NCBI GenBank assembly: GCA_025558095.1
Contig: JAIVFI010000013.1
Span: 1 to 64,000 of the forward strand
DNA from: Hyaloraphidium curvatum
Lineage: Eukaryota > Monoblepharomycota > Hyaloraphidiomycetes > Hyaloraphidiales > Hyaloraphidiaceae
Reading direction: 5' to 3'
Length of the DNA stretch: 64,000 nt
Part shown: in pieces, positions 26,836 to 58,784 of the stretch
Numbering within the stretch: the first letter of the stretch is position 1
Layout: every line of letters starts with the position of its first letter
Program-made: the position numbers and the translations under genes
Notes under the pieces: model-generated
What the model saw: the letters and a program-made list of their open reading frames with translations, nothing else
Told to the model about the DNA's origin: nothing
Database searches by the model: none

Positions 26836-26974
26836 GGGAGTTGGCTCGTGGGTACCGGACTATTGGGTGTTCTCGCAACGTTCTCGGTTCGACAACAGTT
26901 TTGGATTTCGCAAGGCATTTGCCTACTCTTCGGAGCACCAAGTCCAAAGTCCAAAGCCAGCGACGCGGACTCCA

Positions 26975-27033
26975 GCAGACATCCATCAGGCGCGCCCTTC
27001 CCTCTTGGATTCCGGGCGCCCTTCATCGTCCGC
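26975..27033 (-). promoter_or_regulatory. Candidate SECIS element
   Basis: On the minus strand, starting about 44 nt after the stop of the selenoprotein-like gene. In order: GCGGAC, G, ATGA (27026-27023), an 11-nt arm, AA, a small TCC/GGA hairpin, a GC-rich return arm, TGAT (26988-26985), GGAT and GTCTGC. GCGGAC can pair with GTCTGC (one G-U), ATGA and TGAT form the expected non-Watson-Crick quartet, and AA sits 11 nt after ATGA, as in a form 2 SECIS. Helix II is weak, about seven pairs with one bulge. Pairing was done by eye and not folded by software. Confidence 0.5.
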
Positions 27034-27076
27034 CTCCGTCCACGTCCATCCTCCTTGCTCCACAAGGCCGGGCCGC

Positions 27077-27719
27077 CTAGCAGCCCTTGGCCAGGGCGCC
27101 CTCGACGGCCGACACGGCCTCCTCGTCCGAGGGGAACCTGTTCTTCCCCTCCTTCTCCTTCTCCATGCCCGACCAGACCACCGTGGCTGTTTCCCCAAGC
27201 CAACAAAACAAAGGCACCACGAACAGGGAGAGAATGAGCCCCGGTCGGTCCGCGCGCGACGCCGCGCTGCCGCCCACCGTTGCACGCCCCCCTCTCCAGC
27301 GACACCTCGAACGAGTGGAACCGCGGCCGCTCCCTGTTCACTGCGACGCGCGCGCCGGGCCAGCGGCGCACCACGGCGTCGCGGACCTTGTCGGCGGCGC
27401 GCGAGAAGGCGCCTCAGGAGTTGCTAAACAGGGGGTGCCATGGGGAATACGGAGAGGCGTTAAACGGGCGCCTAGAAGAGGGCGGCGGGGATTCGCACCA
27501 CCGCTCGATGTGCAGCGACCAGTCCGGCCCCGCGACCGCCTTCTCCGCGAGCGGCGCGGCGCCCTCCGAACCCGCGAGCGGCGCGGGCCCCCCGAACCGC
27601 GGCAGCAGATCCAGCCCGAGCCGCGGCGAAGCCACAAGAAACACAAGGAGCAGCAGCGGCAGCACCACCGCGAGCCGGACGCGCGGCATGGCGCTGCCGG
27701 GGGCAGGGGTCTTGTTCAT
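27077..27719 (-). CDS. Probable selenoprotein, SelW/SelT/SelH-like (Rdx family)
   Basis: Three exons (27719-27499, 27423-27278, 27186-27077) give about 158 residues if TGA at 27416-27414 is read as selenocysteine. An N-terminal signal-anchor (RLAVVLPLLLLVFLVAS) precedes DWSLHIER. Intron 1 (GTGCGA...TTTAG, 75 nt) joins TG to C and creates Cys74-Asn-Ser-Sec77, the CxxU redox motif of Rdx selenoproteins, in the expected place. It is followed by GAFSRAADKVRDAVVRRWPG, then ARVAVNRERPRFHSFEVSL, ATVVWSGME and a closing helix PSDEEAVSAVEGAL. These match the family's beta-alpha-beta-beta-beta-alpha thioredoxin-like layout. Other genes here end normally at TGA (the GST and kinase genes), so the code is not reassigned. 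A candidate SECIS lies 3'. Likely a secretory-pathway thiol oxidoreductase. If the TGA is a stop, this is a pseudogene. Confidence 0.72.
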
Positions 27720-57149: not shown

Positions 57150-58784
57150 TTACTGTATCGCCGCCGGACACACAATCGTCCTCTCGATCACGCCCGCATC
57201 GACCCCCAGGATCCCGCACACCCTCCTGTAGTATGCGTTCTTTGCCGACGCCCACGAGTTGGACTCGCACCCCGACTGCGAGTTGACCACGACGTTGGCC
57301 GCCGTGATGCCGTACCTGAACGGGTCCATCATGGCCTGGTGGCACGTGATGCTCCGCGACGAGGTGGCGCGCATGTAGAACCACAGCGAGGTGATCCAGG
57401 CCATCTGCCGCGCGGGCGGGGTGGTGGATGCGATGTTCGCGGGGATCTGGTTGTTCCCGCCGGGGTTGGGGCCGGGGAAGCCGAAGGTGCCGGGCTGGCC
57501 CATGAAGGATTTGCGGTCCACGGTGATGATGAGGTTCGGGTAGCGCACCAGGCGGTAGTCCCCGAAGAGCTCGAGCGAGCAGGGCGCGTAGTTGAAGTTG
57601 TACGAGAGCTGCTGCACCCCCCGGCCTCCGTACTGGCGTGCTGGTCAGGTGCCGCAGACCATGGTCACCAAGGAGACCCACCTGACAGTACATCCCGTGG
57701 CACGCCGTCGCCCTGTTGTTGCTCCATCCCCTCGACGCCAGCGCCGAGGGCTTAACCTTATCCTGCTCAGCGCGGGGCTCGTCGCCGTACAGCGTGCCGT
57801 CGTCTGACACGCCAACGAGACCGGGCTCGAAGACGACTCCGCCGCCAGTGCCCTGGCCGAGGCCGAAGCTCGTCTGGTTCCCGTTCGTCAGCGACAAGAC
57901 GGACGATGCCAGGGCAGTTTGCTGGAAGCCCATGAGGTACTTTTCGTTGGCGTTGAGCGCTGCCCGTCACCGCGTGAGACGCCGAATTGCAGTCGTGCCG
58001 CAAGGAACCCACCGATCTTGGCGTTCAGTATCCCCGTCAGCGGCGGCGGATCGCCCACTTTGTCCAGCGGCGTCATCGACGCCGCGAGCCCCTCGACGAT
58101 GCACAGCAGGCCCCCCGCGCCCAGCGTGTTGAACTCCGGCCCCGTCCTCGCGTCCGCCGCGGGCCACGCCCAAGGGTACGGCACGGTCAGCGACGGGTCC
58201 CCCGTCTCCTGGATCGCCGAGGCGAAAAAGGCGGCGACCTCGAGGACGTTGGTCAGGTGGTCCGTCGCGGAGGTGCCGAAGCCGTGCAGGCGGGCGTCGG
58301 GGTGGGCTTCGAGCCAGTCGACGGCGGAGAGGAAGGATTCGAGGTCGTAGAAGGGGGCTCCGTCGCCGGTGTAGACAGCCGAGGCCTTGTGGTAGGGGAA
58401 GATGCGCTCGAAGGTGGCCTGCGTGAGCCAAGAGCGGAGCGACTGGGCTCCGTTTGCCGGAGGCGGCGGCGGCGGTGCCGGCCTCTGGGTCGGCAGGACC
58501 GCAGGGGGCTGCACCTTCTTCGACGTCGTCTTCTTGCGCTTCGACGTCGTCTTGCGGCGTTTCGTCGTCGTTTTCTTCTTGGGCCGCGCGCGCATCACCA
58601 CGGGGGCAGGCGTTTCCGGCTCCTCGGCCGGCCCGCCGAAGGCCGCGAGCTTCTCGGCGATTTGCCGCCGCCCGAGGCCGCGCCGCTTCCCCGCCGCAGG
58701 CACGGTCGCCGCATCTCCCCCCGGGAGCAATGCGGCGAGCACGACCAGCAGGATGGGAAGCAGGGAGCACGCTGCGAGCCGCAT
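57150..58784 (-). CDS. GH19 chitinase-like secreted protein
   Basis: A signal peptide (MRLAACSLLPILLVVLAALL) is followed by a Lys/Thr-rich basic linker (KKKTTTKRRKTTSKRKKTTS) and PPPP. The catalytic part has LTQATFERIFPYHKASAVYT, then VLEVAAFFASAIQETGDPS, where the GH19 catalytic Glu is expected. It continues with HGMYCQYGGRGVQQLSYNFN (the substrate-cleft motif of GH19), YRLVRYPNLIITVD, TSLWFYMRATSSRSITCHQA and a Cys-rich end. Two introns (GTGGGT near 58007-57951, and GTGGGT near 57691-57636) make the frame continuous. It probably hydrolyses chitin, perhaps in wall remodelling. Fungal chitinases are normally GH18. The basic linker could bind wall polyanions. Confidence 0.85.

Follow-up and report, generated by a model that had tools for sequence, protein, structure and literature searches.

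We found that the locus at 27719-27077 on the minus strand of the window (the whole stretch of 64,000 nucleotides that was analysed) is in all likelihood, with a probability of about 95%, an intact selenoprotein H (SelH) gene of an early-branching fungus that has retained the use of selenocysteine (Sec). The gene has three exons and a coding sequence of 477 nt, which corresponds to 158 residues including Sec (Table 1). Splicing of intron 1 joins TG to C and gives the mature frame HIER-C-N-S-TGA-GAFSRAADK, and after removal of intron 2 the frame runs on via TVVWSGMEKEKEGKNRFPSDEEAVSAVEGALAKGC to the stop codon. A preliminary description of this DNA had proposed the GTGCGA...TTTAG splice and placed the TGA at the U of a Cys-Asn-Ser-Sec motif, and our re-splicing reproduced these coordinates, as well as its residue number 77, exactly. 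It had also seen about 80 residues of Rdx-family pattern beyond the TGA with the frame kept, where we count 81 coding residues. The GC content at codon positions 1, 2 and 3 is 0.78, 0.54 and 0.91 before the TGA, and 0.67, 0.53 and 0.99 after it. Before and after the codon alike, these are values of coding DNA, so the segment behind the TGA looks coding as well. Standard gene callers would probably truncate the gene model at the TGA.

Table 1. Positions of the SelH gene features in the window and of the SECIS elements of the three selenoprotein genes.
Feature	Position	Strand	Basis
Exon 1 of SelH (MNKT...LHIER-TG)	27499..27719	-	First ATG (27719) downstream of an in-frame stop opens the frame
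N-terminal hydrophobic segment (residues 14-30), a predicted membrane anchor or signal peptide	27630..27680	-	Kyte-Doolittle up to 2.69 over 17 residues
Intron 1, GTGCGA...TTTAG, 75 nt; interrupts the Cys codon of CxxU	27424..27498	-	Frame and gapless SELENOH alignment over the junction
Exon 2, contains CNSU and the VNRERPRFHSFEV core	27278..27423	-	Spliced-frame reconstruction and SELENOH alignment
TGA codon read as Sec, residue 77	27414..27416	-	Spliced frame; Sec position of the CxxU motif
Intron 2, 91 nt, GTGGGC...AACAG	27187..27277	-	Frame kept
Exon 3, ends at TAG stop (27077)	27077..27186	-	Spliced-frame reconstruction
SECIS element in the SelH 3' UTR, core ATGA...TGAT at 27026-26985	26962..27046	-	Fold and leave-one-out covariance model
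SECIS of SelW	~L043:2272-2333, contig C43		
SECIS of SPS	L044:2127-2064, contig C2		Spotted by reading the 3' UTR

The in-frame TGA lies at a known Sec position and is flanked on each side by homologous coding sequence. Aligned with a human SELENOH sequence that was entered by hand, as were all human sequences in this comparison, the domain spans 85 residues with zero gaps and 29 identities (34%), at z = 22.3 against shuffles; the part behind the CxxU alone reached z = 15.3. Against human SelW, SelT and MIEN1, the z values were 2.6, 4.8 and 6.8, and against the SelW of the same genome z was 1.3. As these pairwise scores favour SELENOH over SelW, SelT and MIEN1, the gene is best named selenoprotein H. 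The preliminary description had called it SelW/SelT-like; its placement in the Rdx family stands, but a SelW or SelT identity is rejected on the pairwise scores, and the true SelW is a separate gene on contig C43. Profile matches lay just below the curated cut-offs: NCBIfam CXXU_selWTH (TIGR02174) matched over nearly its full model length with 31.6 bits (E = 1.5e-7; cut-off 34.2), the query having one extra W before the Cys, and Pfam Rdx (PF10262) matched weakly with 15-16 bits (cut-off 22.6). A search of PDB with SelH returned no usable match. Searches of prokaryotic and viral contigs confirmed no relative of SelH, in keeping with a gene of eukaryotic origin. The genome also encodes a Cys-type Rdx protein (CPKC; contig C20, L002, near 1365-1773) that is distinct from both SelH and SelW and matches Pfam Rdx with 67 bits.

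With animal SELENOH the protein shares the CxxU, the VN....RPR..SFEV core, and the W[ST]G and FP motifs within the ungapped alignment. It differs from the human protein in having CNSU instead of CTSU, and in lacking the basic nuclear N-terminus (AT-hook) of the animal kind, in whose place stands a hydrophobic anchor. The basic N-terminus is an animal trait, and we do not take it to define the SelH family. SelW is likewise an Rdx protein with CxxU. SelT is an Rdx protein that shares the hydrophobic N-terminus, but it has a long internal insertion that is missing here. The hydrophobic residues near the N-terminus suggest a signal peptide or anchor and, judging by this hydrophobicity, the protein is probably routed into the secretory pathway. 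Animal SelH, by contrast, is nuclear or nucleolar.

The 3' UTR of the gene contains a SECIS element, located 50 nt after the stop and about 300 nt after the TGA in the mRNA. Its sequence, ATGA-AGGGCGCCCGG-AA-...-GGGCGCGCC-TGAT, folds into a hairpin with a long helix I and a helix II, along with the ATGA/TGAT quartet and an AA that stays unpaired. The region 27056-26958 has a folding energy of -49.1 kcal/mol (z = -5.08), and none of 200 shuffles was equally stable. Two further genes, SelW (contig C43) and SPS (contig C2), have the same kind of SECIS core downstream of their stops, so that the standard quartet and apical AA occur in 3/3 elements. As the Rfam model SECIS_1 matched none of the three, we made a covariance model from the genome's own elements, with the structure entered by hand and the variable apical bases masked. 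Built from the SelW and SPS elements only, with the SelH element left out, this model matched the latter at 27033-26975 (E = 6.4e-5 in 104 kb; 26.9 bits). Outside the training elements, the runner-up reached 15.1 bits. The folding energies of the whole SelW and SPS regions were not unusual, and these two elements are therefore identified by core motif and position.

All five parts of the Sec machinery that we looked for (tRNA-Sec, SepSecS, EFSec, SBP2 and SPS) are present in the genome. The tRNA-Sec on contig C14 scored 78.2 bits against a cut-off of 47; it has the anticodon TCA and an acceptor stem of 9 positions with one mismatch. The main exon of SepSecS (contig C8; 230.7 bits) and domain IV of EFSec (contig C1) were each above their cut-offs. 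Hand-assembled EFSec exons matched mammalian eEFSec in PDB (5izk, 7zjw_E) at 1e-83, the next family being archaeal SelB at 5e-33. For SBP2 (contig C31), two L7Ae exons matched only SBP2 in PDB (7zjw_B, 8e-14), with z = 33 against SBP2 and about 6 against eL30 and SNU13. The open reading frame of SBP2 extends into ankyrin repeats (L051:1495-2797, contig C31 near 198,350; Ank_2, E = 4.6e-18), and we know of no such SBP2-ankyrin fusion elsewhere. The preliminary description had proposed that the TGA encodes Sec, a reading borne out by the machinery together with the SECIS elements; it had named the loss of tRNA-Sec or EFSec from the genome as the observation that would speak against it, and both are there.

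SPS (contig C2, 988500-993000, L044; TIGR00476, 181.6 bits) is itself a selenoprotein; its in-frame TGA (ELKG-U-GCKV) occupies the position of a Thr in human SPS1. SelW (L003:1391-1735) reads YCGA-TGA-GY, with an intron one base after the TGA, and uses TGA twice, as internal Sec codon and as its own stop. Both in-frame TGAs lie at known Sec positions, each accompanied by a SECIS. The SelD model also has two weak matches of nearly equal score on contig C31 (C31:90101, L039; C31:77548, L040). They lie about 12.5 kb from each other and are probably a related ATP-binding enzyme that has been duplicated.

This locus is best explained by Sec insertion of the standard eukaryotic kind. An interrupted frame of this kind would also result if a Cys-type Rdx gene had become a pseudogene by mutation of Cys77 to a stop, or if TGC or TGT had been misread as TGA. 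A single base change suffices for either, Cys forms make up the majority of fungal Rdx proteins, and the CPKC protein is one such form in this very genome. However, a Cys gene has no need of the SECIS behind its stop, and the frame is intact, with its GC-rich third positions continuing after the TGA. As SelW and SPS repeat the combination of TGA at a known Sec position and SECIS in a genome that has the five machinery parts, we consider decay or sequencing error very unlikely. Reassignment of TGA to Cys or Trp would account for in-frame TGAs within several genes, but it is the least credible explanation of all. The code is not reassigned, as SelW itself terminates at TGA after its internal Sec codon, which upholds the preliminary description on this point; moreover, the TGAs of SelH, SelW and SPS each coincide exactly with the Sec position and are followed by a SECIS, and the EF1A exons contain no coding TGA.

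The codon and the SECIS may also be real while Sec is inserted by a modified mechanism of the kind suggested for other fungi. A 2019 study of fungal Sec use reportedly found most fungal selenoproteins to be without a consensus SECIS, and the SBP2 found here is fused to ankyrin repeats. Against this, all three elements are of standard form, and both SBP2 and EFSec match the mammalian proteins, which makes an altered mechanism unlikely, if slightly less so than decay or error. Under standard insertion, UGA codon 77 would be decoded as Sec when the spliced SelH mRNA is expressed and translated. SBP2 would bind the SECIS hairpin and bring in EFSec with Sec-tRNA(UCA), on which SepSecS would make Sec from the selenophosphate supplied by SPS. 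The predicted product is a thioredoxin-like Rdx oxidoreductase whose redox site is Cys-Asn-Ser-Sec.

The genome (31.9 Mb in 55 contigs; GC of the window 67.5%) is that of a fungus, as the preliminary description had held from its appearance. It contains 74 matches to the Fungal_trans domain, and its EF1A, which has the opisthokont insertion, is nearer to that of yeast (863 bits) than to those of mammals (844-855 bits). A saccharopine reductase, judged by eye to be of the fungal type, adjoins SelW. As Fungal_trans is so abundant, a nucleariid host is unlikely. Among the Monoblepharomycota, a relative of Gonapodya such as Hyaloraphidium would fit. Two pairs of Fungal_trans matches have identical scores (C25:4796 and C25:28295; C10:42653 and C51:10831), which suggests recent duplications or duplicated contig ends. 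One 18S rRNA pattern, searched for direct placement, gave no match. The window also contains a weak match to class I chitinase (GH19) at 57153-57644 on the minus strand, a family not expected to be common in fungi. Fungal-specific genes thus occur together with traits lost in Dikarya, as in an early-branching lineage: the genome has the B12-dependent methylmalonyl-CoA mutase, a trait of non-Dikarya fungi (PMC8085122).

Sec use was long believed to be missing in fungi, and every added Sec-using fungus marks where the trait was lost. To our knowledge, almost all other fungi have lost the Sec machinery. Nine Sec-using fungi were reported in 2019 by Mariotti et al. (cited in PMC10778597 and PMC11378755), seven of which are Harpellales (PMC10386755), and as late as 2021 a survey covering 689 fungal proteomes treated Sec use as absent from fungi (PMC8559351). 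The fungus analysed here looks like a further Sec user beyond these nine, apparently with ordinary animal-type SECIS elements. We tentatively suggest, with the balance just short of even, that a lineage outside the nine keeps an animal-like Sec system, with standard SECIS in the genes seen and an SBP2-ankyrin fusion, and sends its SelH to the secretory pathway. If so, altered Sec insertion in other fungi would be derived, not general. With its standard SECIS elements and nearly complete machinery, such a fungus offers a point of comparison for the ancestral system of fungi, and allows the idea that fungi insert Sec in an altered way to be tested. Like the early-branching fungi of the 2019 study, it combines Sec machinery and selenoproteins in a non-Dikarya genome. 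Unlike them, most of whose selenoproteins reportedly lack a consensus SECIS, it has a standard SECIS in all three genes, and this, along with the anchored SelH and the fused SBP2, is what is new in its Sec system.
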